From: Herbidospora daliensis
Lineage (GTDB): Bacteria > Actinomycetota > Actinomycetes > Streptosporangiales > Streptosporangiaceae
Direction: 5' to 3'
NCBI RefSeq assembly: GCF_001570585.1
Contig: NZ_BBXF01000003.1
Location: forward strand, 779,353 to 843,352
Length of the DNA: 64,000 nucleotides
Part shown: in pieces, positions 7,387-59,957 of the stretch
Position numbering within the stretch: the first letter of the stretch is position 1
Layout: the number at the start of each line of letters is the position of its first letter
The notes under the pieces: generated by a model
What the model was told of the DNA's origin: nothing
What the model saw: only the letters and a program-made list of their open reading frames with translations
Database searches by the model: none
Position numbers and translations under genes: made by a program

Positions 7387-7453
7387 AGGGCTATACGGCC
7401 GCTCACGAGGCTGGCCGTCGATAAGCCGGATGACTCTTCTCGGAGGCCCGACG

Positions 7454-10400
7454 GTGTTGCGCGAACGGCGGCAGGGCGCCGCATTACCCACCCTCATCTC
7501 GCTTGCTCTGTTATCCAGTCTGGTCACCTCCGTGCCGGCGAAGGCGGTCGCCCCGCCCGTCCAGGCCCCCGTGAGCGCCGCGGCGGTGAAGTGCCCCGAG
7601 GAGATGCCCACCGAGATCGCCGCGCGGCTGGCCGCCCAGGTCTGCGGCGCGCGGGTCAGGGCCGCCGCGATGACCACGGAGAACGACGAGTACTTCGTGA
7701 ACCCCGACGGCACGCTCACCGTGGAGCACCGCTACCGCCCGGTCAGGATCAAGCGGGACGACCGCTGGGTGCCGGCCGACGCGACGCTGGTGGTGGCCGA
7801 CGACGGCACGGTCGTGCCGAAGGCCGCCTCGGTCTCCTACGGCTTCTCCGGCGGCGGCGACGGGCCCCTGGTGCGCGCGGCCCGCGAGGGCGTGGAGTTC
7901 GCCCTCGGCTCGCCGCTCGGGAAGCTGCCCAAACCGGTGCTCTCCGGTACGACCGCGACCTACCCGGAGGTGCTGCCCGGCGTCGACCTGGTGCTCACCG
8001 CCGACGTCGACGGCTTCGCCCAGAAGCTGATGGTGAAGAACCGGCAGGCGGCCGCCGACCCGAGGCTGAAGTCGCTCACCTTCGGCACCGAGATCGAGAA
8101 GGGCACGCTGAAGGCCGACAAGCACGGCAACCTCACCGTCGTCGGCAGGAAGGACGAACCGGTCTTCGCCGCCGTCGCCACCGAGATGTGGGACGCCGCC
8201 GCCGAGAAGGCCCCGGCCGCCGCGGCCAGGACGGGGGCGTCCAACCCGGGCAAACGGGCCACGATGGGCGTCAAGGTGGGCCGCGACGCGGTCACCGTCA
8301 CCCCCGACGCGGCGCTGCTGGCCGACCCGGCCACCGTCTTCCCGGTGACGATCGACCCGAGCTTCACCGCCGCCAAGTCGGCCTGGACGTACGTCGACTC
8401 GCGCTACCCGACCAGCACGTACTGGAACAGCTCGAACGACGCCACGGCGGGCACCGCCGAGTCGGGCGCGTTCAAGCGGCGCTCGTTCTTCACCATGAAC
8501 CTGTCGGGCATGGGCACCCGCAAGCAGATCGTGGCCGCCACGTTCAACATCTACGAGCACTGGGCCTGGTCGTGCACGCCCAGGAACGTCGAACTGCACC
8601 GCACCGCCGCGGTGTCGTCGTCGACCAACTGGAACAACCAGCCCGCCTCGAACCTGTCGATCGGCGCCAAGAGCGTCGCGCACGGCTGGTCGTCGAGCGG
8701 CCAGGGCGGGCCGTCGAGCTGCCCGTCGGCGTGGGTCGGCTGGAACGTGGCCTCGGCCCTCCAGGGGATCATGGACGCGGGCGGCACCTCGGTGACGTTC
8801 ATGGTCAAGGCGTCCAGCGAGACCGACAACACCTACTGGAAGCGGTTCGCCAACAACCCGAACATCTCCATCACCTACAACTCGGTCCCGGGCACGCCCG
8901 GCTCCCTCGCAGTGGCCCCCTGCTCGACCTGCTCCAGCCCGGCGCTGGTCGGGGCGGCGCAGCCGAACCTGTCGGCGAAGGTCTCCGACGCCGACGGCAC
9001 GGCGCAGCGGGCCGACTTCGAGGTCTGGAACGCCGCCAAGGCCACCAAGATCACCGGCGGCTCGGTGTCGGGCGTCGCCAACAACGGCACCGCCACCTGG
9101 CGGGTCGCCACCCCGCTCGCCAACACCTCCTACAACTGGCGGGTGCGCACCTACGACGGCACCGCCTACGGCGCCTGGTCGTCGTGGTTCGCCTTCACCG
9201 TCGACGCCGCCGCGCCCGACGCGCCCGAGGTGAGCTCGGCCGACTACCCGGCCGACGCGTGGTCGAAGGGCGCCGGCCAGGCCGGGACGTTCACCATCAC
9301 GCCGGCGGGCTCCGACGTGTCGGCCGTGCTCTGGTCGTTCGACGGCGGCGCGCAGCAGTCGGCCGCCAGCAGCGGCGGCGCGCACACGGTGACCTGGACA
9401 CCCGCCGCCGACGGGCCGCACACCCTGCGGGCCTGGGTGAAGGACAAGGCCGGCAACCTGTCGGAACCCGCCCAGTACGACTTCGGCGTGGGCCGCTTCG
9501 CGGTGACCTCGCCGCAGGACGCGAGCTCCACGGCCCGGCGGACCGTGCTGGCCGCGGCCGGCAGCGCCGGCGTCACCGCCGTCAGCTTCTCCTACCGGCG
9601 CGGCGAGGCCGACGACTGGCACCAGGTCCCGGCCGCCGACGTGCGCCGCCGCTCCGACGGCGCGGCGATCACCTGGCCGGTGGCGATGGCCGCGGGCGTC
9701 TCGCCCGACCTGGTCTGGGACGTCACCCGCACGCTGGCCGAAGACGGCGCGATCGAGATCCGCGCCGAGTTCACCACCTCGGGCGGCACCGCCGCCTCCC
9801 CGAAGGTGGACCTGACCGTCGACCGCGACGCCGAGGGCGCGACCACCGGCCCGATCGGCCCCGGCACCGTCAACCTGCTCAACGGCGACTTCCGGATGAC
9901 CGCCACCGACGCCAGCATGTTCGGCGTCGGCCTGATGCGCTCCTTCTCCTCCCGCGACCCGCGCAAGGGCTCCTCCCTGCCGGGCGTGGCCCCCATCTTC
10001 GGCGCCGAGTGGACGCCGAACGGCCTGGCCCAGTCGGGCGACGGCACCTTCACCGAGCTGCACGCCACCTCCGCCACCTCGGTGGAGATCACCGGCGACG
10101 GCTCCTCGGTCGCGTTCACGAAGAACGCCGACGGCTCCTGGACGCCGCAGTCGGACGCCGGGAACCTGAAGCTCACCTACGACGCGGGCGCCGACCGCTA
10201 CACCCTGACCGACTCGACCACCGCGGGCAGCACCGTGTTCGCCAAGGTCAACGACGCCTACCTGGTGCGGGCGGTCTACCCGGCCGGCGGCAAGGGCGGC
10301 ACCGTCTTCGTCTGGGAGCCGGTGACCGCCGCCGACGGCACCCGGCTCGCCCGGCCCACCCGGATCATCGCCCCGGCCTGGTCGGTCGGCTCGGCCGCCG

Positions 10401-13400
10401 ACTGCGACGTCGCCACTCTGGCCGCGCTGCCCGAGGGCTGCCGCCTGATCGTGGTCACGTACGCCACCACGACGACCGCCGGGGCGCAGCTCGGCGACGT
10501 CGCCGGGCAGGTCAAGCTGATCAGCCTGTGGGAGGGCGGCGCCGCCGACCCGCAGCACCTGTCCGAATACCGCTACGACGACCTCGGCCGGCTCCGCGAG
10601 CGCTGGGACCCGGCCACCCCGGCCGTGAAGACCCGCTACGACTACGACCTCGCCGGCCGCGTCAACCGCTTCACCCCGCCCGGCGAGCTGCCGTGGACGC
10701 TCACCTACGGCCGCGCCGGGAACGCCGACACCGCCGCCGACGGCATGCTGCTGGCCGCCTCCCGGCCGACCCTGCGCCCCGGCACCCTGAACGAGACCAA
10801 CGGCACCGCCGTCACCTCGGTCGTGTACGACGTGCCGACCAGCGGCAGCGGCGCGCCCTACAACCTCTCGCCGGCCGCCACCCTGACGTGGGGCCAGACC
10901 GACCCGCCGTCGGACGCCACCGCGGTCTTCCCGCCCGACCAGGTGCCCGCCAACCACACCGGGCGCGGCGGGCTGGCCGGGTCGGACTACGGCCGGGCCA
11001 CCGTCACCTACCTGAACGCCAACGGCGCGACCGTCAACCGGGCCGAGCCCGGCGGCGGCCTGTCGGCCAGCCAGTACGACGCCCAGGGCAACACCGTGCT
11101 CAACCTGTCGGCGGGCAACCGGGCGCTGGCCTTCGGCCAGGGGCCGGGCGCGGCCGAGGAGCTGACCCGCCTGGGCCTGATCAACAGCTCGACCGCCGAA
11201 CGGGCCCGGCTGCTGTCGGAGGAGACCGTCTACTCCGCCGACGGGCAGCGCATGCTCGGCGAGTTCGGCCCGCTGCACCTGGTGCGGCTGAACGGCGTCC
11301 CGACGCCCGCCCGCAAGCACCAGGTCAACACCTTCGACGAGGGCCGGCCCGACGACGCCAAGGTGTCGGGCCTGGTCACCACCACCGCCGTCGGGGCCTG
11401 GACGCCGGGCGGCGGCGCGGACGCCGACGTGCGCCTCAGCCGCACCTCCTACGACTGGGCCACCGGCAAGGTCGTCAGGTCGGTGACCGACCCGGGCGGC
11501 CTGGCCGTCACCCGGACCACCGGCTACGACGCCGACGGCCGGGTCGTCAGCGCCACCATGCCCAGGTCGTCGGGCGACGACGCCGGCACCACGACCAGCG
11601 CCTACTACACCGCCGACGGCTCCGGCGAGTGCGGCGGCAGGCCCGAATGGGCCGGGCTGCTCTGCCGGACCAAGGCCAAGCAGGCCGTGTCGGGCGGCGG
11701 GTCCAACCCGTCCGAGCTGGTCACCAAGGTGTACTCCTACGAGGAGGGCGGCCGGGTCGCCTCGGTCGCCGAGACCGCCAACGGCGTCACCCGCACCACC
11801 GCCACCACCTACGACAGCGCCGGCCAGGTGCTGACCACCACGGTCACCGGCGGCCTCGGCGCGGCCGTGCCCGCCGTCACCAACACCTACGACGCCGCCG
11901 GCCGGCTGACCAGGACGACCGCCTCCACGGGCGGGTCGATCACCCGCGAGTTCGACGTCCTGGGCCGCCAGACCTCCTACACCGACGCCGACGGCGGCGT
12001 CACCCGGGTCGAGTACGACGCGCTCGACCGGGTCGTCAGGAAGACCGACGGCGCCCCGTCCACGATGACCTACGAGTACGACCTCGACGCCGACCCGCGC
12101 GGCCTGCTCACCGCGATGACCGACTCGGTCGCCGGGCGCTTCACCGCGACCTACGACGCCGAGGGCGGCATCGTCGCCGAGCAGCTGCCCGGCGGGGTGG
12201 CCTACACGGTGAGCAAGGACCCGACCGGCGCGCCGACCCGGCGCGTCTACCAGAACGCCGCCGGGGTGAAGCTGCTCGACGACGCGGTCGCCTGGTCGAT
12301 CCACGGCCAGCAGGTCGTCCGCACCGGCCTGTCGGCGCAGCTCGTCGGCTACGACAGGATCGGGCGCATCGCCTCCGTCGACGACACCGTGGGCGGCGTC
12401 TGCACCCGGCGCGCCTACGGCTACGACGCCAACTCCAACCGCACCTCGCTGACCAGCGGCGGCTGCGACGGAAGCGGCGTCACCACCCGCACCCACGCCT
12501 ACGACACCGGCGACCGGCTGGTCGACGAGGGCTACGTGTACGACGCCTTCGGCCGCACCACCGCCACCCCCGACGGGCTGGCCGTCGACTACTACGCGAC
12601 CGACCTGGTCAAGACGATGACCTCGGGGGACGCGCGGCAGTCGTACACGCTGGACCCCCAGCTCCGCCGCAACAGCACCCTGACGGAGGCGCGGACCGGC
12701 GGGACGTGGGCCGCCGCGGCCCGGCGGGTCGAGCACTTCGACGCCGACGACGACACCCCCGCCTGGGTGGTGGAGGACGTCGCCACCGGGCGGGTCTCCC
12801 GGAACGTGCACTCGGTGTCGGGCGGCCTGGCGGCGATCACCTCCGCCACCGGCGAGGTCCGGCTCCAGCTCACCAACCTGCACGACGACATCAACGTCGT
12901 GCTCGACCTGACCACCGGGGTGCCGCTCGCGCTCGACTTCGACGAGTTCGGCAACCCGCGTCCCGGCCAGCCGGCGGGCCGCTACGGCTGGCACGGCGCG
13001 GCCGAGCGGGTCACCGACACCCCCGACGGCACGATCCTCATGGGCGTGCGGCTCTACCAGCCGAAACTCGGCCGGTTCCTGCAGACCGACCCGGTCGAGG
13101 GGGGCAGCGCCAACGCCTACGACTACGCCGCCCAGGCGCCGACGTCCAACGCCGACCTCGACGGCCGCAAGTGGTACTGGTGCCGCACGTTCTCGCACTT
13201 CGCCTTCAACCACTGCGGCGTCACCCGCGCCTGGTACCACGGCAGCTGGCGCACGGTGCGCTGGGTGAAGACCCCGCGGGGCTGGTGGGTGCGCGGCGTG
13301 CTGTACGACTACTGCACCAGCAGCCCCGACCGCCCGCTGGGCTTCGACTTCCGGCAGGCGTGCATGATGCACGACTACGGATACGCCCTGCGGCGGATGG

Positions 13401-13552
13401 GCTACATCTCCAGCAAGTACCAGGCCGACAGCATCTTCTACCACGTGCTCTACAACGGGGTCTGCCCCGCGTACGCCTGGTACCGGCGCGGCCTGTGCCG
13501 CAACCTCGCCACCAACTACTACCTGGCCGTCTACTACTTCGGCCGGGTCTGA
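7454..13552 (+). CDS. Secreted RHS-repeat protein with C-terminal phospholipase A2 toxin domain
   Basis: A 2,032-residue polymorphic-toxin-type protein. GTG at 7454 is preferred over the in-frame ATG at 7430 because GGAGG (7442-7446) sits 7 bp before it and the reading then begins with a signal peptide (LRERRQ, a hydrophobic core, then AKAVA). The N-terminal ~850 residues are a DNRLRE/fibronectin-like shell (DNTYWKRF, WRVATPLANTSYNWRV). Many YD repeats (YDYDLAGRVNRF, YDAAGRLTRT, YDALDRVVRK) build the RHS cage, closed by the core GRFLQTDPVEGGSANAYDY. The final 126 residues (13172-13549) form a bacterial/fungal-type phospholipase A2: CMMHDYGY with the catalytic His at 13370, a second Asp in ADSIFY, five cysteines and a terminal NYYLAVYYFG. 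Two TTA codons lie in the signal peptide. No immunity-like gene is adjacent. Confidence 0.92.
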   Translation: MLRERRQGAALPTLISLALLSSLVTSVPAKAVAPPVQAPVSAAAVKCPEEMPTEIAARLAAQVCGARVRAAAMTTENDEYFVNPDGTLTVEHRYRPVRIKRDDRWVPADATLVVADDGTVVPKAASVSYGFSGGGDGPLVRAAREGVEFALGSPLGKLPKPVLSGTTATYPEVLPGVDLVLTADVDGFAQKLMVKNRQAAADPRLKSLTFGTEIEKGTLKADKHGNLTVVGRKDEPVFAAVATEMWDAAAEKAPAAAARTGASNPGKRATMGVKVGRDAVTVTPDAALLADPATVFPVTIDPSFTAAKSAWTYVDSRYPTSTYWNSSNDATAGTAESGAFKRRSFFTMNLSGMGTRKQIVAATFNIYEHWAWSCTPRNVELHRTAAVSSSTNWNNQPASNLSIGAKSVAHGWSSSGQGGPSSCPSAWVGWNVASALQGIMDAGGTSVTFMVKASSETDNTYWKRFANNPNISITYNSVPGTPGSLAVAPCSTCSSPALVGAAQPNLSAKVSDADGTAQRADFEVWNAAKATKITGGSVSGVANNGTATWRVATPLANTSYNWRVRTYDGTAYGAWSSWFAFTVDAAAPDAPEVSSADYPADAWSKGAGQAGTFTITPAGSDVSAVLWSFDGGAQQSAASSGGAHTVTWTPAADGPHTLRAWVKDKAGNLSEPAQYDFGVGRFAVTSPQDASSTARRTVLAAAGSAGVTAVSFSYRRGEADDWHQVPAADVRRRSDGAAITWPVAMAAGVSPDLVWDVTRTLAEDGAIEIRAEFTTSGGTAASPKVDLTVDRDAEGATTGPIGPGTVNLLNGDFRMTATDASMFGVGLMRSFSSRDPRKGSSLPGVAPIFGAEWTPNGLAQSGDGTFTELHATSATSVEITGDGSSVAFTKNADGSWTPQSDAGNLKLTYDAGADRYTLTDSTTAGSTVFAKVNDAYLVRAVYPAGGKGGTVFVWEPVTAADGTRLARPTRIIAPAWSVGSAADCDVATLAALPEGCRLIVVTYATTTTAGAQLGDVAGQVKLISLWEGGAADPQHLSEYRYDDLGRLRERWDPATPAVKTRYDYDLAGRVNRFTPPGELPWTLTYGRAGNADTAADGMLLAASRPTLRPGTLNETNGTAVTSVVYDVPTSGSGAPYNLSPAATLTWGQTDPPSDATAVFPPDQVPANHTGRGGLAGSDYGRATVTYLNANGATVNRAEPGGGLSASQYDAQGNTVLNLSAGNRALAFGQGPGAAEELTRLGLINSSTAERARLLSEETVYSADGQRMLGEFGPLHLVRLNGVPTPARKHQVNTFDEGRPDDAKVSGLVTTTAVGAWTPGGGADADVRLSRTSYDWATGKVVRSVTDPGGLAVTRTTGYDADGRVVSATMPRSSGDDAGTTTSAYYTADGSGECGGRPEWAGLLCRTKAKQAVSGGGSNPSELVTKVYSYEEGGRVASVAETANGVTRTTATTYDSAGQVLTTTVTGGLGAAVPAVTNTYDAAGRLTRTTASTGGSITREFDVLGRQTSYTDADGGVTRVEYDALDRVVRKTDGAPSTMTYEYDLDADPRGLLTAMTDSVAGRFTATYDAEGGIVAEQLPGGVAYTVSKDPTGAPTRRVYQNAAGVKLLDDAVAWSIHGQQVVRTGLSAQLVGYDRIGRIASVDDTVGGVCTRRAYGYDANSNRTSLTSGGCDGSGVTTRTHAYDTGDRLVDEGYVYDAFGRTTATPDGLAVDYYATDLVKTMTSGDARQSYTLDPQLRRNSTLTEARTGGTWAAAARRVEHFDADDDTPAWVVEDVATGRVSRNVHSVSGGLAAITSATGEVRLQLTNLHDDINVVLDLTTGVPLALDFDEFGNPRPGQPAGRYGWHGAAERVTDTPDGTILMGVRLYQPKLGRFLQTDPVEGGSANAYDYAAQAPTSNADLDGRKWYWCRTFSHFAFNHCGVTRAWYHGSWRTVRWVKTPRGWWVRGVLYDYCTSSPDRPLGFDFRQACMMHDYGYALRRMGYISSKYQADSIFYHVLYNGVCPAYAWYRRGLCRNLATNYYLAVYYFGRV

Positions 13553-13567
13553 CGACCCGGTGACACC

Positions 13568-13608
13568 GCCGGCGGGGGCCGTCCCACGGTCCCCGCCGGC
13601 GTCTTTCT
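13568..13608 (+). terminator. Rho-independent terminator after the RHS gene
   Basis: A 13-bp GC stem (13568-13580 against 13588-13600, a single G-U wobble) around a 7-nt loop, followed by GTCTTTCT. It lies 16 bp after the RHS stop and before the SARP promoter, so it insulates the two genes. Confidence 0.8.
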
Positions 13609-13618
13609 GACCCACGGG

Positions 13619-45385: not shown

Positions 45386-46543
45386 TCAGCGGCGGAAGGG
45401 GCCGGTCACGCAGTAGGTGATGCCGCCCGACGACGAACCCGACGTGCCCCGCTGGGAGGAGAAGTAGAGGCGGTCGCCCGCCGGGTTGAAGGCGGGGCCG
45501 GTGATCTCCGAGGAGCTCTGGCCGCTGATGCGGAGGAACGGGGAGATCCGGTCGTCGGGGGTGATCATGCAGATCTCCATGTTGCCGCCGTCCTCGGCGA
45601 CGTAGAGGTCGCCCGAGGTCGAGCCGGTCACGTTGTCGACGCCGGTCAGCGGGGGCGTGCCCGAGGTGACGAGGCTGTCGTCGTAGGCCAGTTCGTAGGT
45701 GTTGTTCACCAGGTTGACCTGCCACACCCGGTTGTCGCCCTTGGTGGTGAACCAGACGGTGTCGTTCGCGTAGTAGCAGCCCTCGCCGCCGTTGAACGAC
45801 TTCGACCCCGGCACCTGGTTGCGGGTCAGGGTCGGGCTGCCGTCGGGGTCGGGGACGGTCGCCCAGGTGAACGAGCCGCTGGTGCCCGAGCCGGCCACCA
45901 TGACCTGCAGGGTGCCCGCCGACAGGTCGCCCCAGGTGGCCGGGACGAAGCGGTAGAAGCGGCCGTTCGTCTCGTCTTCGGTCAGGTAGACGACCCGGCG
46001 GACCGGGTCGGCCGCGGCGGCCTCGTGGGTGAACCGGCCCATCGCCGGGCGCTGCACCGCCGCACCGCCGAAGGGGTAGGTCTCGTAGACGAAGCCCCGG
46101 CTGACCTCCTCGCACGACAACCAGGTGTTCCACGGGGTCTTGCCGCCCGCGCAGTTCTGCCGGGTGTCCGACAGGATCCGGTTGGCCGAAACGACGGTGC
46201 CGGCCGCGTTGAAGCGGAGCGCCGACGCGCCGCCGCCGGGGTTGATCTCGGAGTTGGAGACGTAGATCCAGCCGGACCCGTCGGCGAAGCAGGCCCCGCC
46301 GTCGGGGGCGTCGTGCCAGGTGTACGAGGTGCCGGAGACCACCTGCCGCGACCGGGCGACCACCCGGCTGGTGAAGCCCGCGGGCAGCCGGATGCCGTTG
46401 GCGTCGGCCGCCTGGAGCGCGCCGTAGGGGCCGGTCGCGGGCTGGGCCGGGGCCGCCAGCGCGGCGCCCTGCCAGAGCGATCCGGAGAAGGCCACCGTGC
46501 TCGCACCCAGGACGGAAGCGCGAAGGAAATTGCGTCTTTCCAT
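45386..46543 (-). CDS. Tat-exported PhoX/DUF839-family protein
   Basis: A 385-residue secreted protein. The Tat signal is clear (MERRNFLRASVLGAS, hydrophobic core, ALAAPAQPA cleavage) after a strong ribosome-binding site (AAGGAGG). The mature part is a beta-propeller of the PhoX type, with TPWNTWLSCEE, a metal-binding-like segment YLTEDETNGRFYRFVP, and NGGEGCYYANDTVWFTTKGDN. PhoX proteins are calcium/iron alkaline phosphatases; this one lies well below the usual PhoX length (about 600-700 residues), so phosphatase activity is uncertain. Monocistronic. Confidence 0.88.
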   Translation of the reverse strand: MERRNFLRASVLGASTVAFSGSLWQGAALAAPAQPATGPYGALQAADANGIRLPAGFTSRVVARSRQVVSGTSYTWHDAPDGGACFADGSGWIYVSNSEINPGGGASALRFNAAGTVVSANRILSDTRQNCAGGKTPWNTWLSCEEVSRGFVYETYPFGGAAVQRPAMGRFTHEAAAADPVRRVVYLTEDETNGRFYRFVPATWGDLSAGTLQVMVAGSGTSGSFTWATVPDPDGSPTLTRNQVPGSKSFNGGEGCYYANDTVWFTTKGDNRVWQVNLVNNTYELAYDDSLVTSGTPPLTGVDNVTGSTSGDLYVAEDGGNMEICMITPDDRISPFLRISGQSSSEITGPAFNPAGDRLYFSSQRGTSGSSSGGITYCVTGPFRR

Positions 46544-46658
46544 GATTTCTTACCTCCTTGACTGGGACTGTAAGCCTCGTAATGTTTACACACGGTGAAC
46601 GCAGTGCGGGCGCTGAGTGACGGGTTTGGTATGTCCGAGTTTCCGGCATCATCCCGAA

Positions 46659-49007
46659 ATGAGCCCGTACACCCTGCCCTTGACCAGCGAATCCGCCGAC
46701 GCCGGCACCGCCGGGGGCAAAGGCGCGTCGCTCGCGCGGCTCGCGTCGGCGGGGCTGCCGGTGCCGGGCGGGTTCCACGTCACCGTCGCCGCCCGCGAGG
46801 CCGGCATGAACCGCGAGGTGACCGCCGAGATCACGGCGGCCTACCGGGCGATGGGCGACGACGTGCCGGTCGCTGTGCGGTCGTCGGCCACCGCGGAAGA
46901 CCGGCCCGACGTGTCGTTCGCGGGGCAGCACGACACCTACCTCGGGGTCCGGGGGGCCGCGGCGGTGATCGACGCGGTGGAGCGGTGCTGGGGCTCGCTC
47001 GACAACGACCGGGCGCGGGCCTACCGCGAGCGGGCGGGCATCGAGCGGCCGGGCATGGCGGTGGTCGTCCAGGAGCTCGTCGACGCGTCGGTGTCCGGGG
47101 TGATGTTCACCGAGCTCGACGGGAAACTGGTGATCAACGCGGCCTGGGGCCTGGGGGAGACCGTCGCGGGCGGCACGGTCACGCCCGACGTCTACGCCGT
47201 CGACCGCGACGGCCACATCGAGGAGACGATCTCCGAGAAGACCGTCATGGCGGGCACGTCGGGGCTGGTTCCGGTGCCCGGCGACCTGCGGTCGGTGCCC
47301 ACGCTGACGCGCGAGCAGGTGATGGCGCTGACCGGCCTCGGCCGGCGCATCGAGATCCTGTACGGAATGCCGATGGACGTCGAATGGGGCATCGCCGCGG
47401 CGAAGCCGTACATCCTGCAGGCTCGGCCGATCACCGGGCGGCGGGAGGTGTGGAACGACTCCCTGCTCGGCGACTACCTGTGGAGCAACGGCAACCTCGG
47501 GGAGGCCATCCCGAGCGTCATGACGCCGGTGACCTGGTCGGTCATCCAGCGGTTCATGGCCGACGCGATGATCGCCGGGTCGTTCGCCGGGCACCCGATG
47601 TGCGGCAACATCGGCGGGCGCTTCTACATGAACCTGTCGGTCCTGCTGACCATCGGCGACGCCTTCGGCCTCAACCGGGTGATCAGGGACGGCCTGCGCC
47701 CGGTCTTCGGCCGGCTGCCCGACGACGCCGAGGTCCCGCTCCTGCGGCTGACCAGGCCCCAGCTCGTGCGGGCGATGATCCCGCTGCTGCGCGGGCGGCT
47801 GGCGCTGATCCCCTACGCCCGGCGGCTCGACCGCATGCTGCCGCGCGTCCGCCGCCGGGCCGACGACCTGCGCACCCTGATCGCGGTCAGCAACGACCTG
47901 ACCGGCCTGTGGCGGGGCGCGGTCGAGCCCTACTTCCGCGAGTGCAACCGCCTGCTGGCCGCCGCCGGACGGCAGGACGCCGGCAGCCTGATCTACCTGC
48001 GCAACCGCTTGGAGGACCTCGTCGGCGCGGCCGACGCCAACGCGCTGACCAGCGGGTTCGGCGCCCACCTGGAGAGCATGGGGCCGCTGCTCGGCCTGGG
48101 CGAGGTGAAACGCGGCCGGCTGTCCCGGGAGGAGTACGCCCACCGCTGGGGGCACCGCTGCCCCGACGAGCTCGAACTGTCGGCCGCCCGCCCGGGGGAG
48201 GACCCGGAATGGCTCGGCAGCGAGCTCGACGGCCTGTCGGAGGACCCGATCGAGCTGCTCAACCGGCAGGAGGGGGCTTCGCGGGCGGCGTGGCGGCGGT
48301 TCAAGGAGCACGACCCGCGCAACGCCTACCGCTACTGGGGCCGGATCCGGCGGTGGAGCGAGATCGTCCAGGACCGGGAGGAGGCGCGGTCGGAGGCGGT
48401 CCGGGCGTTCTGGGTGCTGCGCGACTGGGTGCGCCGGGCCGGGTCGGTCACCGGGATCGGCGAGGACGTCTTTTTCCTGCGCGTCGGCGAGATCCTGCGG
48501 CTGCTCCGGGGCGACCGGGGCGTGCTCGGCCTGATCGACGCGCGGCGCGCCGCCTACCACCACTACCGGTCGCTGCCGCCCTACCCGGGGGTCGTCCGGG
48601 GCGCGTTCGACCCCGAACGCTGGGCCGCCGACCCCGACCGGCGGTCCGACTACGCGGGCGAGACGACGGGGGCCGCCGTCGGGAACGGGGCGATCAGCGG
48701 CTTCCCCGGCGCGGCCGGGGTGGTCGAGGGCATCGCCCGGGTCATCCCGTCGATGACCGAGGCCGGGCACCTGGCCGCCGGGGAGATCCTGGTGACGAAC
48801 GTGACCAACGTCGGCTGGACCCCGCTGTTCCCGCGCGCCGCCGCCGTGGTCACCGACGTCGGCGCGCCCCTGTCGCACGCCGCGATCGTGGCCCGCGAAC
48901 TGGGCATCCCCGCCGTCGTCGGCACCGGCGACGCGACGAGCCGCATCCGCGACGGCGCCCGCGTGCGGGTCGACGGCTCGGCCGGGACGGTCGAGGTCCT
49001 GGACTAG
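46659..49007 (+). CDS. Rifampin phosphotransferase-like PEP/pyruvate-binding enzyme
   Basis: A 782-residue protein with three parts. An N-terminal PEP synthase/PPDK ATP-grasp (about 1-260: GGKGASLARLASAGLPVPGG, VAVRSSATAEDRPDVSFAGQ, LQARPITG); a middle, mostly helical region of about 430 residues; and a C-terminal swivelling phosphohistidine domain (GAPLSHAAIVARELGIPAVVG, His740). This ATP-grasp/middle/His order is that of rifampicin phosphotransferases, normally about 860 residues; this one is shorter. No start with a convincing ribosome-binding site is seen; ATG 46659 fits the domain start. Activity on rifamycins, and hence a resistance role, is inference; related YvkC-type proteins have no known substrate. 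Confidence 0.8.
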   Translation: MSPYTLPLTSESADAGTAGGKGASLARLASAGLPVPGGFHVTVAAREAGMNREVTAEITAAYRAMGDDVPVAVRSSATAEDRPDVSFAGQHDTYLGVRGAAAVIDAVERCWGSLDNDRARAYRERAGIERPGMAVVVQELVDASVSGVMFTELDGKLVINAAWGLGETVAGGTVTPDVYAVDRDGHIEETISEKTVMAGTSGLVPVPGDLRSVPTLTREQVMALTGLGRRIEILYGMPMDVEWGIAAAKPYILQARPITGRREVWNDSLLGDYLWSNGNLGEAIPSVMTPVTWSVIQRFMADAMIAGSFAGHPMCGNIGGRFYMNLSVLLTIGDAFGLNRVIRDGLRPVFGRLPDDAEVPLLRLTRPQLVRAMIPLLRGRLALIPYARRLDRMLPRVRRRADDLRTLIAVSNDLTGLWRGAVEPYFRECNRLLAAAGRQDAGSLIYLRNRLEDLVGAADANALTSGFGAHLESMGPLLGLGEVKRGRLSREEYAHRWGHRCPDELELSAARPGEDPEWLGSELDGLSEDPIELLNRQEGASRAAWRRFKEHDPRNAYRYWGRIRRWSEIVQDREEARSEAVRAFWVLRDWVRRAGSVTGIGEDVFFLRVGEILRLLRGDRGVLGLIDARRAAYHHYRSLPPYPGVVRGAFDPERWAADPDRRSDYAGETTGAAVGNGAISGFPGAAGVVEGIARVIPSMTEAGHLAAGEILVTNVTNVGWTPLFPRAAAVVTDVGAPLSHAAIVARELGIPAVVGTGDATSRIRDGARVRVDGSAGTVEVLD

Positions 49008-52910: not shown

Positions 52911-53735
52911 TCACCCTTTCACCGCACCGACCAGCCCGTTGACGAAGTAGCGCTGCAGGAACGCGAACAGCACGATCACCGGCAGCACCATGATCAATGA
53001 TGCCGCGAGCACCTCGTTGTAGCGGACGACGGTACCGGAAATCAGGGACTCCAGCCCGAGGGGCAACGTGTAGAGCGACTCGTCGTTGAGGGAGACCCGG
53101 CTGAGCACGTACTCGTTCCACGTCGGCACCGCCGTCAGCACCGCGATCGTGACGTGCGCGGGCCGGGTCAGCGGCAGGTAGACGCGCAGGAAGATGCGCG
53201 CCTCGCTGGCGCCGTCGGCCCGCGCGGCCTCGCGCAGTTCCTTCGGCACGCTCCGGTACGCCGCCGTCAGCAGCAGCACCGTCAGGGGCGCCGTGCCGTT
53301 GACGAACGGCAGCACCAGCCCCATGTGGGTGCCGAGCAGGCCGAGCCGGTTCTCCAGGATCACCACCGGCAGCAGCACCGTGATGCCCGGCACGAACAGC
53401 AGCGCCACGAACAACCAGTAGAGCGCCTTCGCGCCCGGGAACCGGAGCACCGCGAACGCGTAGGACGCCAGGCTGTAGACCACCAGCACGCCCAGCACCG
53501 TCAGCCCGGTCACGATCAGGCTGTTGCGGAAGTAGTCGACGAACGCCAGCTGGTTCCACGTGGTGACGATCGTGTCGAACGTCGGCGCGCGCGGGATCAG
53601 GTGGCCGCCGTCGAGGATCTCCTCGCGGGTCTTGAACGCCCCCGACACCATCCACAGGAACGGATAGAGGCTCAGCGCGGCGTAGGCGGTCAGCGCCGCG
53701 TAGGCGGCGGTCTTCGCGATGCGGGCGGCGGTCAC
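52911..53735 (-). CDS. CUT1 ABC sugar permease (MalG-like)
   Basis: A 274-residue inner-membrane permease with six helices. The EAA loop is readable as EAARADGASEARIFLRVYLP and contacts the ATPase. The GTG start overlaps the upstream permease stop by 4 bp (GTGA). It pairs with the permease upstream and the lipoprotein. No ATPase gene is in the operon, as is common in CUT1 systems that share MsiK. Confidence 0.95.
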   Translation of the reverse strand: MTAARIAKTAAYAALTAYAALSLYPFLWMVSGAFKTREEILDGGHLIPRAPTFDTIVTTWNQLAFVDYFRNSLIVTGLTVLGVLVVYSLASYAFAVLRFPGAKALYWLFVALLFVPGITVLLPVVILENRLGLLGTHMGLVLPFVNGTAPLTVLLLTAAYRSVPKELREAARADGASEARIFLRVYLPLTRPAHVTIAVLTAVPTWNEYVLSRVSLNDESLYTLPLGLESLISGTVVRYNEVLAASLIMVLPVIVLFAFLQRYFVNGLVGAVKG

Positions 53736-54655
53736 CGCACCCTCCTCAGCAGCCGGGCGTTGGCCAGGGTCAGCAGCACGGCCCCGACGAAGAGCAACCA
53801 GCCGAGCGCGCTCGACAGGCCCAGCGTCGGCGCCAGCCCCTTGAAGAAGGCCAGCTCGTAGGTCTCCAGGGCGAGCACGTTGGTGTGCCCGCCGGGCCCG
53901 CCGTTCGTCATGATCAGGAAGATCTGGAACCCGTGCAGCGAGTCGCGCACGCCCAGCAGCACGATCCCGGCCGTCATCGGCGTCAGCAGCGGCACGATGA
54001 TGCGCCGCAGCACCTGGCGCGGGGCCGCGCCGTCGATGCGGGCCGCCTCGACCATGCTCGGGTCGATCGCCTGGAGCCCGGTCAGGTAGAGCAGCGTCGC
54101 GGTCGGCACCGACGACCACACCAGGATCAGGATCAGCGTCCAGAGCGCCGTCGACGGGTCGGCCAGCCAGCCCTGCGGCCGCGCCAGCGAGCCGAGGCCC
54201 GCGGAGCGCAGCAGCAGGTTGATCGAGCCCTCGGGTTCGAGCAGGTAACGCCACGCGTAGTAGGTGGCGATGCCGGTGGTGACGTACGGGAGGAAGTAGA
54301 CCGAGCGCAGCAGCCCCCGCAGGCGGCGCACGGAGTTGAGCATGACCGCCAGCGGCAGCGAGATCAGCACGGTCAGCAGCGGCACCGCCACGCACACCTG
54401 GAGGGTGTTCCAGGCGGCCCGGCGCACCCCCGGGGCGAGCGAGGGGTCGGCCCACAGCAGGTCGGCGTAGTTCTCCAGGCCCACCCAGATCCACTCGGGG
54501 GTGAACCCGTTCCACGACGCGAAGCTGAGGGCCAGGCCGCTGCCGATCGTGTAGACGCCCATCACCGCGAAGAGGGCCACGGCCGGGAAGACGAACGCCC
54601 AGCCGGTGAGCCACTCCTTCCACCGGGTCGCCCTGGCTACTCGGCTGACTTCCAC
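53732..54655 (-). CDS. CUT1 ABC sugar permease (MalF-like)
   Basis: A 307-residue permease with six helices and an EAA loop (EAARIDGAAPRQVLRRIIVP). GTG 54655 overlaps the end of the binding-protein gene by 19 bp, so synthesis is coupled to it. It heterodimerises with the permease encoded next. Confidence 0.95.
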   Translation of the reverse strand: MEVSRVARATRWKEWLTGWAFVFPAVALFAVMGVYTIGSGLALSFASWNGFTPEWIWVGLENYADLLWADPSLAPGVRRAAWNTLQVCVAVPLLTVLISLPLAVMLNSVRRLRGLLRSVYFLPYVTTGIATYYAWRYLLEPEGSINLLLRSAGLGSLARPQGWLADPSTALWTLILILVWSSVPTATLLYLTGLQAIDPSMVEAARIDGAAPRQVLRRIIVPLLTPMTAGIVLLGVRDSLHGFQIFLIMTNGGPGGHTNVLALETYELAFFKGLAPTLGLSSALGWLLFVGAVLLTLANARLLRRVR

Positions 54656-56031
54656 ATCGCTCCGAAGATCGCGTCGAGCTCCTTGCCGGCCTGCGCCGGG
54701 TCGAGCTCCTTGAGCGGGGTCAGCCGGACGAAGGCGTCACCCGGTTTGACCTGGTCGTAGCCGCCCGGGAAGAACGTCGTGTCGCCCGCGTCGTAGGTGC
54801 TCGCGGGGTCGCCGGTGAAGTACTTCTGCAGCGCGGCCAGCTCGGGCCCCATCAGCGTCGCCGCCTCGGCGCCCAGGTCGGTGGCCGGCAGGTCGAGCGA
54901 CTCCTTGGCCACGATGCCCGCCCCGGCCGGCGAGGTGACGTAGTCGATCCACTTCAGCGCGGCGGCCCGGTTCTTGGAGGTGGACGTGACACCGAGGGAG
55001 GTCAGGGCCAACGGGGCCATCACGATGTCCTTGTGCGCCCCGGTCGCCGAGGGCGGGATCGGGAAGGTGAGCACCTTGTCGGGCGACATGCCGTTCTGCG
55101 CCAGGAACGCGAGCGTGAACGTGCCGCCGACGTTGTAGGCCGACTTGCCCTGGGCGAACGCGATGTCGGCCTCGTCGATGCCGAGGGTCGTCGCGCCGGG
55201 CATCCAGTAGGGGGTGAGCTGCGCGAACAGGTCGAGGGTCTTGACCCCGTCGGGCGAGCCGAACCCGGCCGTGGTGTCCTTGGCGAACAGCCCCTGGAAC
55301 TTCTCCTTGCCCAGGTAGGCGTGGGCGAGCGGCTGGTAGATCCAGTTGAAGCCGACCTGGCTGACCTTCAGGCCGAGCGAGAGGCCGCCCGCCTGCGGGT
55401 CCTTCTCCGTGGACGTCTTCAGCGCCGCCACGAACTCCTCCCAGCTGGCCGGGGGAGTGTCGGGGCTGAGCCCGGCGGCCTGGAGCTTCTCCTTGTTGGC
55501 GTAGACGATGCCGAACGCGCCGGCGGTGAACGGGACGGCGTACATCGACCCGGCCTTGGCCTGCTTGAACGGCGAGTCGGCGGCCGCCCGGTCGATGCGG
55601 CCCTGGTCGAGCACGCCCGCGTTCTGCGTGGACGGCAGGAACCGCCCCTTCCAGGCGTCGTTCACGTCGCCGCTGATGTCGGCGAGCAGGCCGGAGGCGC
55701 CGAGCTCCAGGTCCTCACCGGCGGCGTGGGCCTCCAGCACGTCGGGCAGGTCGCCCGTCTGGGCGGCGCTCTGGATCTTGCTCTTGAAGACGTCGTCGGG
55801 CGTGACGGCCTCGACCTTCACGCTGATGCCGGTCTGCGTGGTGAACTGTTCGGCGGCCTTCTGGAGTGCGGCCGCGTGGGACTGTTTGAAGGTCCACATC
55901 GTTATCGACTGTCCGGACGCGGCCGGTTCGCCGGTCTGCCCGCCGGTCTGCCCGCCGCCTGACGAGCAACCGGCGGCCACCAAGGTGGCGACGGCGGCCA
56001 GGGACAGGATTCGCGCTTTCATAGATGCCAT
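54637..56031 (-). CDS. ABC transporter solute-binding lipoprotein (family 1)
   Basis: A 464-residue lipoprotein. The signal ends in LVAAGCSS, with a Gln/Gly-rich linker behind the lipidated cysteine. The mature part is a type-1 sugar-binding protein: ITMWTFKQSHAAALQKAAEQ at the N-terminus, VPFTAGAFGIVYANKEKLQ in the hinge region, and aromatic residues (NWIYQPLAHAYL) lining the likely pocket. ATG 56031 follows AGGGGG. First gene of the uptake operon, separated by 77 bp from the fusion regulator. Ligand likely a sugar, sugar acid or nucleoside. Confidence 0.93.
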   Translation of the reverse strand: MASMKARILSLAAVATLVAAGCSSGGGQTGGQTGEPAASGQSITMWTFKQSHAAALQKAAEQFTTQTGISVKVEAVTPDDVFKSKIQSAAQTGDLPDVLEAHAAGEDLELGASGLLADISGDVNDAWKGRFLPSTQNAGVLDQGRIDRAAADSPFKQAKAGSMYAVPFTAGAFGIVYANKEKLQAAGLSPDTPPASWEEFVAALKTSTEKDPQAGGLSLGLKVSQVGFNWIYQPLAHAYLGKEKFQGLFAKDTTAGFGSPDGVKTLDLFAQLTPYWMPGATTLGIDEADIAFAQGKSAYNVGGTFTLAFLAQNGMSPDKVLTFPIPPSATGAHKDIVMAPLALTSLGVTSTSKNRAAALKWIDYVTSPAGAGIVAKESLDLPATDLGAEAATLMGPELAALQKYFTGDPASTYDAGDTTFFPGGYDQVKPGDAFVRLTPLKELDPAQAGKELDAIFGAMWKSAE

Positions 56032-56053: not shown

Positions 56054-56067
56054 GCAAATCGTTAAGA
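56054..56067. promoter_or_regulatory. Degenerate LacI-type site before the binding-protein gene
   Basis: GCAAATCGTTAAGA matches 10 of 14 positions of the perfect operator found at 59828-59841. It lies 23 bp upstream of the binding-protein ATG, between it and the stop of the regulator. The match is partial, so this is a weak call; a separate imperfect inverted repeat (GGAATTT and AAATCCC, 56076-56098) is next to it. Confidence 0.35.
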
Positions 56068-56108
56068 CTGTCCCTGGAATTTACACGCGGGAAATCCCCT
56101 GTCAAGGG

Positions 56109-57650
56109 TCAGGCCGACTCGCGGCGGACCAGCCGCGCCGGGATGATCGTCTCGGTCGAGCTCTCGGCGACCGTGCCCGCCAGGCGGGCGAGCAGCCGTT
56201 CGCCGCAGGCCCGGCCGATCTCGCGGGCCGGGTTGGCCATCGTGGTCAGCCGCGGCGAGACCAGGCTCGCGGCCTCGATGTCGTCGAAGCCCATCACCGC
56301 CAGGTCGCCGGGGATGCGCAGGCCGCGGGCCATCGCGGCGTCGATCGCGCCCAGCGCCATGATGTCGTTGGCGCACAACACCGCGTCGGGCGGGTCGGGC
56401 AGGCCGAGCAGCCACGACGTGCCGCCCGCGCCGCCCGACCGGCTGAAGCTGGTGTGCACGACCAGCCGGGGGTCGGCCTCGATCCCGGCCGACGCCAGGG
56501 CCAGCCGGTAGCCCGAGACGCGCTCGGCGGCGGGCCCCTCGGCGCGCGGCCCGCAGACGAAGCCGATGCGCCGGTAGCCGGTCTCCAGCAGGTGGCGGGT
56601 CGCCTCGGCCGCGCCGCCCTCGTCGTCGCTGTGCACCAGGTCGACGCCGTCCTGCACCTGCACGCCGCCCAGCCGGACCACCGGCAGCCCGGCCTCGATC
56701 ACCGGCAGCAGGTCTTCGGCGTGGGTGTGGAAGACGGCGAACGCCAGGCCGTCGACCTGCCGGGCGATCATCTGCTCGATCGCGGCACGTTCCATGTCGC
56801 GGTCGCCGTCGGTGTTGCTGATGATCTCGTCGTAGCCGGCCGGGCGCAGCACGTCCTGCAGCCCCCGGGCCAGCGCCGGGTAGAACGGGTTGGTGATGTC
56901 GGGGATGACCAGCCCGATCGTCTGGCTGCGGTTGGTGCGCAGCCCCCGGGCCAGCACGTTGGGCCGGTAGCCGAGCCGGTCGATCGCCTCGAGCACCCGC
57001 CGGCGGGTCTCGGCCGCGACCGGCCGCCGCCCGTTGAGCGTGTGGGACACCGTGGTCGCGCTCACCCCGGCCGCCTGGGCGACCAGCAGGATGCTCGGCC
57101 GCCGGGCGTCGGCGCGCGGCGCGGGGGCGCGGCGGACCGGCGGCGCGGCGAAGGAGGCCAGCGCCTCCTTGAGCTCGCCGACGGCCTGCTCGGCGGCGTC
57201 CGGCGCGGGGGCGCCCTCGGCCACCCGCAGGATCGCCGACTCCCACACCCGCCGGGCCGCCGCCGCGACCAGCGCGCCGGTCACCCCCGCGCCGAGCTCC
57301 TCCTCGCGCGCCGCGAACGCCTCGCGGGCGTGCGCCCGCAGGTGGGCGTCGTCGCGGTAGACCCGGGCCCGCGCCGGGTCGAGCACGCCGGTCGCGGCCA
57401 CCCACCCGGCCACGACCTGCGGCACCGGCTCGGCGGGCAGCGGCCCGCGCGGCAGCAGCGGCGGGTCGGCGTCGAAGAACAGCTGCTCCTTGGCCGGGAA
57501 GTAGTTGAACACCGTCTTGACCGCGACGTCGGCCTCGGCGGCGACGTCGGCGACCGTGACGGCCGCGAACCCGCGTTCGGCGAACAGCCGCAGCGCGGCC
57601 CCGGTGATCGCCCGGCGCGTCTCGGCCTTCTTCCGCTCCCGCCGATCCAT
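56109..57650 (-). CDS. TetR-LacI fusion transcriptional regulator
   Basis: A single 513-codon frame combines two repressors. Residues 1-170 are a TetR-type HTH ([20 protein letters not shown] with [15 protein letters not shown]) and a shortened helical domain of about 110 residues. After an Ala/Pro/Arg linker (about 170-185), a complete LacI HTH (residues 186-235: [19 protein letters not shown], hinge helix [16 protein letters not shown]) leads to a periplasmic-binding-like sensor (240-513: [41 protein letters not shown]). ATG 57650 is preferred over GTG 57671; neither has a good ribosome-binding site, so coupling to the upstream dehydratase is likely. It probably controls the surrounding sugar-acid genes. 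Confidence 0.93.
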
Positions 57651-57695
57651 GGAGGGATCGTATATCCACACGCACCTTGCACCCGATGTAAGTTC

Positions 57696-58946
57696 TTAAG
57701 GCGGCTCGATGCCGCCATCGGGGCGGCGCACGCGGGCCGACCAGCGTTCGTGGAGATGGGTCACCGGCGGGTGCTTCGCGGCGGCGCGTTCGTCGAGGTC
57801 GACGCCCCAGCCCGGGGCGTCGTGGGGGAAGAGGTAGCCGCCGACCGGGTTGATCGTGCCGGGGAAGACCTCGACGACCGGATCGGGGTAGACGTGGCCC
57901 TCCTGGATCTGGAACGCGTGGGTGGTGACGTCGAGGGCGATGTTGGCCGCCGAGCCGACGGGCGAGACGTCGGCGGGGGAGTGCCAGGCCGTGCCGACCC
58001 CGTTCAGCTCGCAGAGCGCGACCAGTTTCCTGACCGGCGTGAGGCCGCCGACCGCCGAGACGTGCAGCCGCAGCAGGTCGACCCCGCCGTTCATGACGAG
58101 CCGCGCCGCGTCGGCGACCGACCCGAGCTGCTCCCCGGCCGCGATCGGCATCGGCGCCGCGCCGCGCACCTCGGGCAGGCGGTCGTAGTACTCGGGCGCG
58201 ACGGGGTCTTCGAGGAAGAACAGCCGGTACGGTTCGAGCGCCCGCGCCAGCTGCACCGCCTGCTTCACGGTGAGCCGCGAATGGACGTCGTGCAGCAGCC
58301 CCGGCTCGTCGCCCAGTTCCTGGCGGGCCCGCTCGAACAACGCCGGGGTCTCGCGGAGGTAGCGCTGTACGTCCCACCCGTCGGGGTAGGGCGCGCCGGG
58401 GTAGCCGTTCGGGGAGCCCGGAGCGCCGTAGTGGCCGAGACCGGGCGCGCCCGTCTGCAGCCGGACGTTGCGGTAGCCCGCGTCGAGCAGCCGCCGGGCG
58501 TGGTCGAGGGTCGCCTCGACCGTCGCCCCCTCGGCGTGCAGGTAGGTGTCGGCGGCGGCCCTGACCCGGCCGCCGAGGAGCTCGTACACGGGCATGCCGG
58601 CGCGTTTGCCCATGATGTCCCACAGGGCCTGGTCGACCCCGGAGAGCGCGCTGTTCAGCACCGGCCCGCCCCGCCAGTACGACGAGTAGTGCACCATCCG
58701 GACGATGTCCTCGATGTCGGCCGGATGCCGGCCGACCAGCATCGGCCCGACGTGCTCGTCGACGGCGGCGGCCACGGCGTGGAAGCGCTGGGTGAAGGTG
58801 GCGCAGCCCAGGCCGTACAGGCCCGGATCGGAGGTGTCGACCCGCACCACCACCAGCGGCGGCCCGCCCGGCGCGGTCACGATCGACCGCACCCCGGTGA
58901 TCCTGAGGTTGTCGCGGGCGGGCCAGGGGGCCTGCGTTTCCGGCAT
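57696..58946 (-). CDS. Enolase-superfamily sugar-acid dehydratase (ManD/RspA-like)
   Basis: A 416-residue enzyme of the mandelate racemase group. Metal and catalytic residues follow the D-mannonate dehydratase pattern: the Asp and His in LLHDVHSRL, the Glu in FFLEDPVAPE, the Glu in IAAGEQLGS, and the His in TAWHSPADVSP. The N-terminal capping domain is complete. ATG 58946 shares its A with the epimerase stop (TGATG), so the two are coupled. It would remove water from a sugar acid (mannonate or gluconate) to give a 2-keto-3-deoxy acid. Exact substrate cannot be fixed. Confidence 0.92.
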   Translation of the reverse strand: MPETQAPWPARDNLRITGVRSIVTAPGGPPLVVVRVDTSDPGLYGLGCATFTQRFHAVAAAVDEHVGPMLVGRHPADIEDIVRMVHYSSYWRGGPVLNSALSGVDQALWDIMGKRAGMPVYELLGGRVRAAADTYLHAEGATVEATLDHARRLLDAGYRNVRLQTGAPGLGHYGAPGSPNGYPGAPYPDGWDVQRYLRETPALFERARQELGDEPGLLHDVHSRLTVKQAVQLARALEPYRLFFLEDPVAPEYYDRLPEVRGAAPMPIAAGEQLGSVADAARLVMNGGVDLLRLHVSAVGGLTPVRKLVALCELNGVGTAWHSPADVSPVGSAANIALDVTTHAFQIQEGHVYPDPVVEVFPGTINPVGGYLFPHDAPGWGVDLDERAAAKHPPVTHLHERWSARVRRPDGGIEPP

Positions 58947-59812
58947 CACGGGGCGACTCCGAAGGTGTCGGCGGGGAAGAGGTGCTCGGCGCGGAAGCCG
59001 AGCAGGGTCTCGGCCACCGTCAGGTCGACCGGCGCCTCGCGGCCCGTGAAGGTCCTCCGGCGGGCCGCGTCGGGGTGGAAGCGGTCGAGCAGTTCCTCCG
59101 TCGGCTGCGGGGCGAGCGTCGTCGGTGCGGTCACGAACACCGCGTGGTAGCCGGTGAGCGGGGCGGTCACGGCGAGCCAGGCCGCGCGGGCGGCGTCGCG
59201 GTCGTCGAGGTAGGTCCACAACTCGGCGGCCCCCGAGCCGGGGTCGTCGGCGTAGCGGGCGGCGGTGGTGTCGAACTTGTCGCCCGGCCCGCCGAGCAGC
59301 GGATAACGCAGCGCCACTACGCCCATGCCGAACCGCCGCGCCATCATCGCGCCGGTGGCCTCGTCGGCCTGCTTCGACAGGCCGTAGGGGTCCTCGTTCT
59401 GGAGCGGGAGCCGCTCATCGATGGGCACGTAGGCGGGGTGCAGCGGCTTGGCCGCCCACGGCATCCCGGTCACCGACAGGCTGCTGGCCAGCGCCGCCCT
59501 CGGCACCCCCGCCCGCCCGGCCTCCTCCAGCACCACGAAGGTCGACCGGGTGTTGCCCGCGTAGACCGCCACCGGCGTGCCGAGCGTGGGCGCGGGGATC
59601 GCCGCGAAGTGCAGCACCGCGTCGACCCCGTCGAGCGCCCGCCGGACCGTCTCCGGATCGCCCGCGTCGCCTGCCACGACCCTCGGCGCGACCAGCGGTT
59701 CCCGATCGAGCGCGGTCACCTCGACCCCCAACTCGGCCAGCAGCGCGAGCGTGGCTCTCCCCAGCCTGCCCGCGGCCCCCGTGACCAGCACCCGGCGGGG
59801 TGTGTCGGCCAT
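58946..59812 (-). CDS. NAD-dependent epimerase/dehydrogenase (extended SDR)
   Basis: A 288-residue Rossmann enzyme with VTGAAGRLGRATL at the nucleotide site and the catalytic YGLSK motif. It is the first gene of the sugar-acid operon and precedes the dehydratase, suggesting a role as a uronate dehydrogenase-type or C-epimerase step. ATG 59812 has GGGAGG 9 bp upstream. A strong LacI-type palindrome lies just before it, so the operon is likely induced by its sugar. Confidence 0.9.
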   Translation of the reverse strand: MADTPRRVLVTGAAGRLGRATLALLAELGVEVTALDREPLVAPRVVAGDAGDPETVRRALDGVDAVLHFAAIPAPTLGTPVAVYAGNTRSTFVVLEEAGRAGVPRAALASSLSVTGMPWAAKPLHPAYVPIDERLPLQNEDPYGLSKQADEATGAMMARRFGMGVVALRYPLLGGPGDKFDTTAARYADDPGSGAAELWTYLDDRDAARAAWLAVTAPLTGYHAVFVTAPTTLAPQPTEELLDRFHPDAARRRTFTGREAPVDLTVAETLLGFRAEHLFPADTFGVAP

Positions 59813-59827
59813 TCGATCATCCCTCCC

Positions 59828-59855
59828 GCAAAACGTTTTGCTTTCGAGCAAAACG
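59828..59855. promoter_or_regulatory. LacI-family operator at the sugar-acid operon
   Basis: GCAAAACGTTTTGC (59828-59841) is a perfect 14-bp palindrome with the central CG typical of LacI-family sites, and GCAAAACG repeats as a half site at 59848-59855. It is about 15 bp upstream of the epimerase start, at a position suited to block transcription. Confidence 0.8.
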
Positions 59856-59957
59856 CAGGGTGCGGGGGTCTGTCAACGTACTACGCGGGGTGATCTTATA
59901 GCGGGTATATCTGACAGGCCCTCGGGCCCAGGCTGGGCGCATGGCGGGCCGGGGGAG

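Follow-up and report, generated by a model that had tools for sequence, protein, structure and literature searches.

A TetR-LacI fusion regulator with a candidate operator for each half in a sugar-acid locus of Herbidospora and related Streptosporangiaceae

Can a single polypeptide carry two repressors of different families, and what would each half then do at the locus in which it is encoded? The question is raised by a gene within a 64,000-nucleotide stretch of the Herbidospora daliensis genome (referred to here as the window; NCBI RefSeq assembly GCF_001570585.1, contig NZ_BBXF01000003.1, positions 779,353 to 843,352 of the forward strand), which lies between a sugar-acid dehydratase gene and the genes of an ATP-binding cassette (ABC) transporter. 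The reading favoured here, to which we give a probability of about 0.65, is that the gene encodes a single-chain regulator formed by fusion of a complete TetR-family repressor onto the N-terminus of a complete LacI-family repressor and stably kept since, with the LacI half acting on the catabolic promoters and the TetR half repressing its own gene and also placed at the promoter of a neighbouring dehydrogenase gene.

A sequence-only reading of the window had described a TetR helix-turn-helix (HTH) and a full LacI HTH and sensor in one uninterrupted frame, and the 513-codon frame and a Pfam search bear this out. TetR_N (PF00440) matches residues 15–59 (E 4.1e-16, 58.9 bits against a cut-off of 24), the LacI HTH (PF00356) residues 190–231 (E 3.9e-16) and Peripla_BP_1 (PF00532) residues 243–510 (E 6e-36), the latter two and PF13377 likewise scoring above their cut-offs. 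The Ala/Pro/Arg linker described between the halves was also found (residues 169–186, of which 94% are A/G/P/S/R/T/E/D) and is predicted to be disordered, with a mean predicted local distance difference test (pLDDT) value of 34 over residues 171–180. AlphaFold2, run on an alignment of 29 orthologues (mean pLDDT 74.7 for the whole chain), lays out nine helices over residues 1–168, a low-confidence segment at 169–182, and then the LacI HTH, hinge and sensor, the LacI part having CcpA, RbsR and PurR as structural matches in Foldseek.

The TetR part modelled alone also gives nine helices (mean pLDDT 82.6 for residues 1–177), and the all-helical core expected of the TetR/AcrR family is thus present as a prediction. 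Its top Foldseek matches are TetR-family proteins, albeit weak ones (best E 1.5e-4, template-modelling score 0.58), no C-terminal TetR Pfam family matches it, and the closest solved structure by sequence profile, among the matches listed (the best 60 of 146), is the TetR-family protein 2of7. The earlier suggestion of a truncated TetR sensor is not supported, because the nine-helix prediction is retained, although at 168 residues the TetR part of the window protein is shorter than that of any other orthologue among the 29 (188–255). The LacI HTH begins only at residue 190, after the TetR module, rather than at the N-terminus as in LacI/GalR proteins, and the protein therefore fits neither the usual LacI plan nor the usual TetR plan.

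The fusion is conserved well beyond the window. A search of 341 Streptosporangiaceae genomes returned 35 genomes with a match of at least 69% identity, in which the gene is fused and uninterrupted in 29, LacI alone in five and cut by a contig end in one. All 29 fused orthologues are in one frame and fall under seven genus codes, with named loci that include Herbidospora, Acrocarpospora, Nonomuraea, Planotetraspora, Streptosporangium and Microtetraspora; within Herbidospora the gene is open, at 513 codons, in 7/7 genomes, and the H. sakaeratensis copy is 98% identical to that of the window. The linkers range from 18 to 103 residues (median 41) and are always in frame. A sequencing error or a chance frame joining two genes, either of which could have explained the architecture away, is ruled out by independent genomes that carry the fusion with in-frame linkers of varying length. 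Nor are orthologues split at the linker: close orthologues are either fused or LacI-only, and in no locus examined are they split into neighbouring TetR and LacI genes.

The five LacI-only genomes of the family comprise four of genus code g32 (by sequence, Sphaerisporangium loci) and Microbispora siamensis, and further LacI-only orthologues, at about 70–75% identity, occur in Phytohabitans, Asanoa, Virgisporangium and Rhizocola. The counts of 29 fused and 14 LacI-only genes used below were taken after near-identical loci had been merged, and the LacI-only count omits one locus at a contig end (L053), which leaves 14 of 15 genes. A profile of the TetR part, run over 338 family genomes with at most eight candidates scored per genome, recovered the same 29 fused proteins at 225 bits or more, the best other TetR protein listed scoring 155 bits, and in that search no stand-alone source of the TetR half was found. 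Among 396 genomes of the phylum (E<=1e-60), a profile of the full fusion matched over its whole length in the window's own genome alone, in a search that scored at most three candidates per genome, favoured LacI similarity and could have missed unrelated fusions. Two candidates for a second fusion were rejected: in G037 a match over 5–509 with two stops proved to be a TetR gene divergent from a LacI gene, and in L022 a long open N-terminal extension has no TetR_N match.

Upstream of the fused genes lies a 17-bp imperfect palindrome (symmetrised consensus CTTACAGCCGCTGTAAG), found 42–43 bp before the ATG in 27 of the 29. Scored with a matrix from which the test genus had been left out (the genus grouping being our own), these 27 sites reach 10.7–23.1 bits, scores that no window attains among 500 sampled downstream of each start codon. 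The motif is absent from a comparable place in all 14 LacI-only genes. Its half-sites covary, with 5.27 of 8 pairs complementary as opposed to 4.78 after swapping right halves, a value reached in 39 of 5000 swaps. In three Planotetraspora loci (L045, L039 and L050, around 5931–5964) the −10-like region is overlaid by a second, weaker palindrome-like match, 17 bp further downstream than the first.

In most fused genes the TetR ATG is preceded, at about 6 nt, by a −10-like element that reads TAAGAT, or TACGAT in Herbidospora. Leaderless actinomycete promoters have such an element just before the start codon, and the regulator gene promoter is probably leaderless; it was not among the promoters that a scan of the window for the sigma-70 consensus picked out.

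The same palindrome recurs at the dehydrogenase promoter. When the matrix draws only on the regulator-promoter sites, the 12-kb stretch of the window has its best site at the regulator promoter (20.6 bits) and its second upstream of the dehydrogenase promoter (18.2 bits), the third scoring 5.3 bits, and the two best sites occupy the same two places in three further Herbidospora loci. A dehydrogenase-promoter site of at least 14.3 bits is present in 13 of 18 fused loci tested and is convincing in 11, four of them the window and its three Herbidospora relatives; loci of Nonomuraea, Streptosporangium and Microtetraspora also have the site, with differing sequence. None was found in four LacI-only loci tested, although three of these have the dehydrogenase gene inside an operon, so that only the M. 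siamensis locus (L055) is a fair comparison.

The sites expected of the LacI half are of two related types. The palindromic GCAAAACGTTTTGC lies 35 bp after the start of the dehydrogenase-promoter TTGACA, and has a CG(A/T)TTTGC half in common with the degenerate site just after the promoter of the transporter's sugar-binding protein. The degenerate type (up to three mismatches) occurs in 17/21 fused and 10/12 LacI-only loci examined, and is assigned to the LacI half because it also accompanies unfused LacI orthologues; the palindromic type (up to one mismatch) occurs in 16/21 fused loci and in 1/12 LacI-only loci, that of M. siamensis, the dehydrogenase gene lying inside an operon in at least three of the LacI-only loci. 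The sequence-only reading had singled out these sites, at 59828 and 56054, for footprinting of the fusion protein. Both are indeed present, but both look LacI-type, and the candidate TetR-type sites, at 57676 and 59895 (Table 1), were not on its list.

From the single frame, its conservation and the distribution of the two motifs, we infer that each half would bind its own motif. The LacI half would keep its ancestral job, binding just downstream of the −10 element of both catabolic promoters (that of the dehydrogenase and dehydratase genes and that of the transporter genes) and letting go of its operators once a sugar acid or sugar is bound. The TetR half would bind the different, 17-bp palindrome, and since the promoter region of the regulator gene itself holds one copy, autorepression would be expected. 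In many fused loci a second copy would be bound upstream of the −35 element of the dehydrogenase promoter; having one site per half, this promoter could let the chain act through both and relay two ligands.

A more specific arrangement is put forward tentatively, and on balance is doubted: that the two halves occupy both operators at one promoter simultaneously, the TetR-type site upstream of the −35 element and the LacI-type site just after the −10 element, clamping or looping the roughly 54–77 bp between them, with two ligands forming a logic gate and the variable linker tolerating different spacings. The sites are 68.5 bp apart in 4/4 Herbidospora loci and 53.5–76.5 bp apart in seven loci of other genera. 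Helical phasing and linker length were both considered as setting this distance and neither gave a pattern, so that the data give no support to a dimer that must always bridge the two sites. To reach from one site to the other, an 18-residue linker would need the DNA to bend, and two independently bound dimers are as possible as one bridging dimer.

Several observations weigh against the favoured reading. Besides the site spacing, which keeps to no helical phase and does not follow the length of the linker (Spearman −0.13 over eight loci), two of the 29 fused genes (L009 and L038) have no motif at the regulator promoter, and the LacI-only loci L052 and L054 have weaker, 9.3-bit matches 245–316 bp upstream. 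The half-swap test treats related sites as independent. Five of the 18 fused loci (four Planotetraspora and one Streptosporangium) have no dehydrogenase-promoter site, and the two Acrocarpospora loci are left out of the convincing 11 because their best site (14.3 bits) is no better than a match inside a permease gene (14.6 bits) and lies 111.5 bp from the LacI-type site. The LacI-only M. siamensis locus has a 15.9-bit match elsewhere, and chance matches of that strength therefore exist. As only 1/12 LacI-only loci have the palindromic LacI-type site, that site is tied to the LacI half less directly. The TetR half also evolves faster than the LacI half: over the seven Herbidospora copies, the pooled ratio of nonsynonymous to synonymous substitution rates (dN/dS) is 0.21 for the TetR HTH and 0.38 for the TetR core, compared with 0.037 and 0.091 for the LacI HTH and core, and 0.14 for the linker. 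The TetR half is thus constrained, though less so than the LacI half. Genome-wide motif counts proved unusable as proof of specificity. The TetR-type pattern derives from the two window sites and so shows only the lack of further ones (no other match at up to one mismatch, versus three for the reversed control), whilst GCAAAACGTTTTGC has a single place at up to one mismatch in the 8.5-Mb genome and its reversed control gives the same count.

An alternative is that the TetR half only autoregulates, or serves dimerisation or stability, with control of the catabolic genes left to the LacI half alone and the site at 59895 incidental or belonging to another promoter. Such a division of labour would fit the LacI-only orthologues, which adjoin the same transporter genes with the same operator type, the lack of a convincing dehydrogenase-promoter site in 7/18 fused loci, the lesser constraint on the TetR core, and the string TATAAG within the window copy at 59895, which could be a −10 element. 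It is harder to reconcile with the rank of that copy, second best of the Herbidospora stretch and far above the third, and with the recurrence of sites of differing sequence before the same promoter in Nonomuraea, Streptosporangium and Microtetraspora, and is considered unlikely, though a serious rival.

It is very unlikely that the fusion works as two proteins, either through proteolysis of the linker, whose predicted disorder and variable length would allow it, or through an internal start giving LacI alone. An internal ATG, GTG or TTG with a partial Shine-Dalgarno match occurs within 60 codons before the LacI HTH in 7/29 fused genes, but none was found there in the other 22, including all seven of Herbidospora, whereas in 12 of the 14 LacI-only genes a start codon with a Shine-Dalgarno-like match stands 8–9 codons ahead of the HTH; in addition, the position of the conserved upstream block suits translation from the TetR ATG. 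Separately, L034, L042, L044, L116 and L129 have short amino-acid repeats of changing copy number in their linkers or TetR-core loops, which suggests repeat-driven length change.

That the TetR half is a passenger no longer binding DNA, and the 17-bp motif an unrelated promoter element, as its fixed distance from the −10-like element might suggest, is very improbable, given an HTH under purifying selection (dN/dS 0.21) with many positions invariant across orthologues, and a motif that is palindromic, covaries between its halves and is not found before LacI-only genes.

With regard to origin, a tree of the LacI part places the LacI-only M. siamensis copy in an unresolved group with fused copies (support 80/87). 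The 29 fused rows form one clade in 0% of 200 bootstrap trees, whilst an approximately unbiased (AU) test, with the long-branch row L071 left out of the tree, does not reject that clade (p 0.354). One fusion event with later loss of the TetR half in Microbispora is likely. The LacI-only gene of M. siamensis (L055, 5941–7008) shares the gene order of the fused loci. A possible start codon of this gene overlaps the stop codon of the dehydratase gene, no TetR-type site lies at the regulator gene, and its TetR half may have been lost secondarily.

The nearest precedent found is Mce3R, one of the double-TetR-family regulator (double-TFR) repressors of Actinomycetes. According to PMC11667970, Mce3R is a double-TetR chain whose structure with DNA has been described, 204 double-TFR proteins are predicted, and these too combine two HTH modules in one chain through fusion of two repressor genes. 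In that account both halves are TetR-type and form one asymmetric TetR-like unit with a nonpalindromic operator and a single ligand-binding domain, whereas the window regulator has one TetR_N match and LacI as its second module, so that its halves come from different families, each seemingly with its own palindromic operator.

With the LacI/GalR regulators of local sugar catabolism it shares an HTH, a periplasmic-binding-protein-like sensor, local targets and, in GCAAAACGTTTTGC, a candidate CG-centred palindromic operator at a putatively regulated promoter; PMC4052901 gives even palindromes with a central CG as the operators of most LacI/GalR members. It differs from them in its N-terminal full TetR module and in the second class of palindrome at the locus. 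With TetR/AcrR repressors such as 2of7 and MftR (8x0a) it shares the TetR_N HTH, nine predicted helices and a putative operator palindrome over its own promoter region (27/29 fused genes), and differs in being fused to LacI and in having no close stand-alone relative of the module in the 338 family genomes. No natural TetR-LacI fusion was found among the papers listed by full-text searches, whose coverage left out most subscription journals, and no solved chain matched both halves among the matches listed (the best 60 of 146 TetR-profile matches); all 26 solved-chain matches listed at E<=1e-40 are on the LacI part. This agrees with the sequence-only reading, which knew of no established family with this architecture. 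On the favoured reading the protein would act through two kinds of operator and regulate its own, leaderless promoter.

The earlier view that this chain with two putative DNA-binding domains sits inside a sugar-acid locus probably under its control is supported, all 29 fused orthologues keeping one frame and two conserved classes of palindrome lying in the locus. The dehydratase resembles ManD and galactonate dehydratases and scores under both NCBIfam cut-offs. Among the large fused loci 23 were compared, and 12 have the order dehydrogenase, dehydratase, regulator, binding protein, permease, permease; L035 and L133 among these 12 have an extra coding sequence before the binding protein, and in the three Herbidospora loci an overlapping frame masks the second permease. 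Five more loci, from Planotetraspora (four) and Nonomuraea (one), have no adjacent dehydratase, and six, all Nonomuraea, are missing most of these neighbours. In Nonomuraea jiangxiensis (L035, 7761–8828) a glycosyl hydrolase family 99 (GH99) gene (PF16317, 1e-60) lies between the regulator and the binding protein, and Planotetraspora loci have comparable coding sequence ahead of the binding-protein gene. GH99 enzymes act on alpha-mannan-type substrates, and the L035 gene hints at such a substrate. Elsewhere in the window, a PhoX-like phosphatase gene (45389–46543, minus strand) lies beside a phosphoenolpyruvate-synthase-like gene (46617–49004, plus strand), and two 2,000-codon open frames overlap on opposite strands (7511–13615 and 7430–13552), of which the minus-strand frame, the one scanned, has no Pfam match at E<=1e-5.

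Table 1. Features of the regulator locus, in window coordinates
Feature	Position	Strand	Basis or remark
TetR-LacI fusion regulator gene	56109..57650	-	Open frame, ATG start at 57650, stop at 56109, 513 residues
TetR module, residues 1-168	57147..57650	-	TetR_N HTH 15-59 plus helices up to 168
Linker, residues 169-186, Ala/Pro/Arg-rich, predicted disordered	57093..57146	-	
LacI HTH, residues 190-231	56958..57083	-	Pfam PF00356
LacI-type periplasmic-binding-protein-like sensor, residues 243-510	56121..56924	-	Pfam PF00532, PF13377; Foldseek CcpA, RbsR, PurR
−10-like TACGAT	57657..57662	-	6 nt before ATG; possible leaderless promoter, putative promoter role
TetR-type palindrome CTTACATCGGGTGCAAG upstream of regulator gene (candidate)	57676..57692	-	Best site of 12-kb stretch
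TetR-type palindrome GATATACCCGCTATAAG upstream of dehydrogenase promoter (candidate)	59895..59911	-	Second best of 12-kb stretch, 18.2 bits
TTGACA, probable −35 of dehydrogenase-dehydratase promoter	59871..59876	-	Sequence
LacI-type operator GCAAAACGTTTTGC (candidate)	59828..59841	.	0/100 window shuffles
Sugar-binding protein promoter TTGACA-N16-TAAATT	56078..56105	-	Sigma-70 consensus scan
Degenerate LacI-type operator CAGTCTTAACGATTTGC (candidate)	56054..56070	-	Just after sugar-binding protein promoter; 0/100 window shuffles
NAD-dependent sugar dehydrogenase/epimerase-like gene	58946..59812	-	NCBIfam matches far below cut-off only; conserved neighbour
Sugar-acid dehydratase, mandelate racemase/enolase superfamily	57696..58946	-	Below D-mannonate and galactonate dehydratase cut-offs
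ABC transporter sugar-binding protein	54637..56031	-	Domain match, conserved neighbour
ABC transporter permease 1	53732..54655	-	Domain match, conserved neighbour
ABC transporter permease 2	52911..53735	-	Domain match, conserved neighbour

TetR and LacI rank with the parts most often used to build synthetic gene switches, and the reading favoured here, if true, would provide a natural example of wiring two repressors into one, together with linker lengths and operator spacings that work. It predicts one promoter, two operators, one protein and possibly two ligands, and the LacI-only orthologues offer a ready comparison for the contribution of the TetR half in a fusion that six or more genera of actinomycetes have retained, each half having its own candidate operator.
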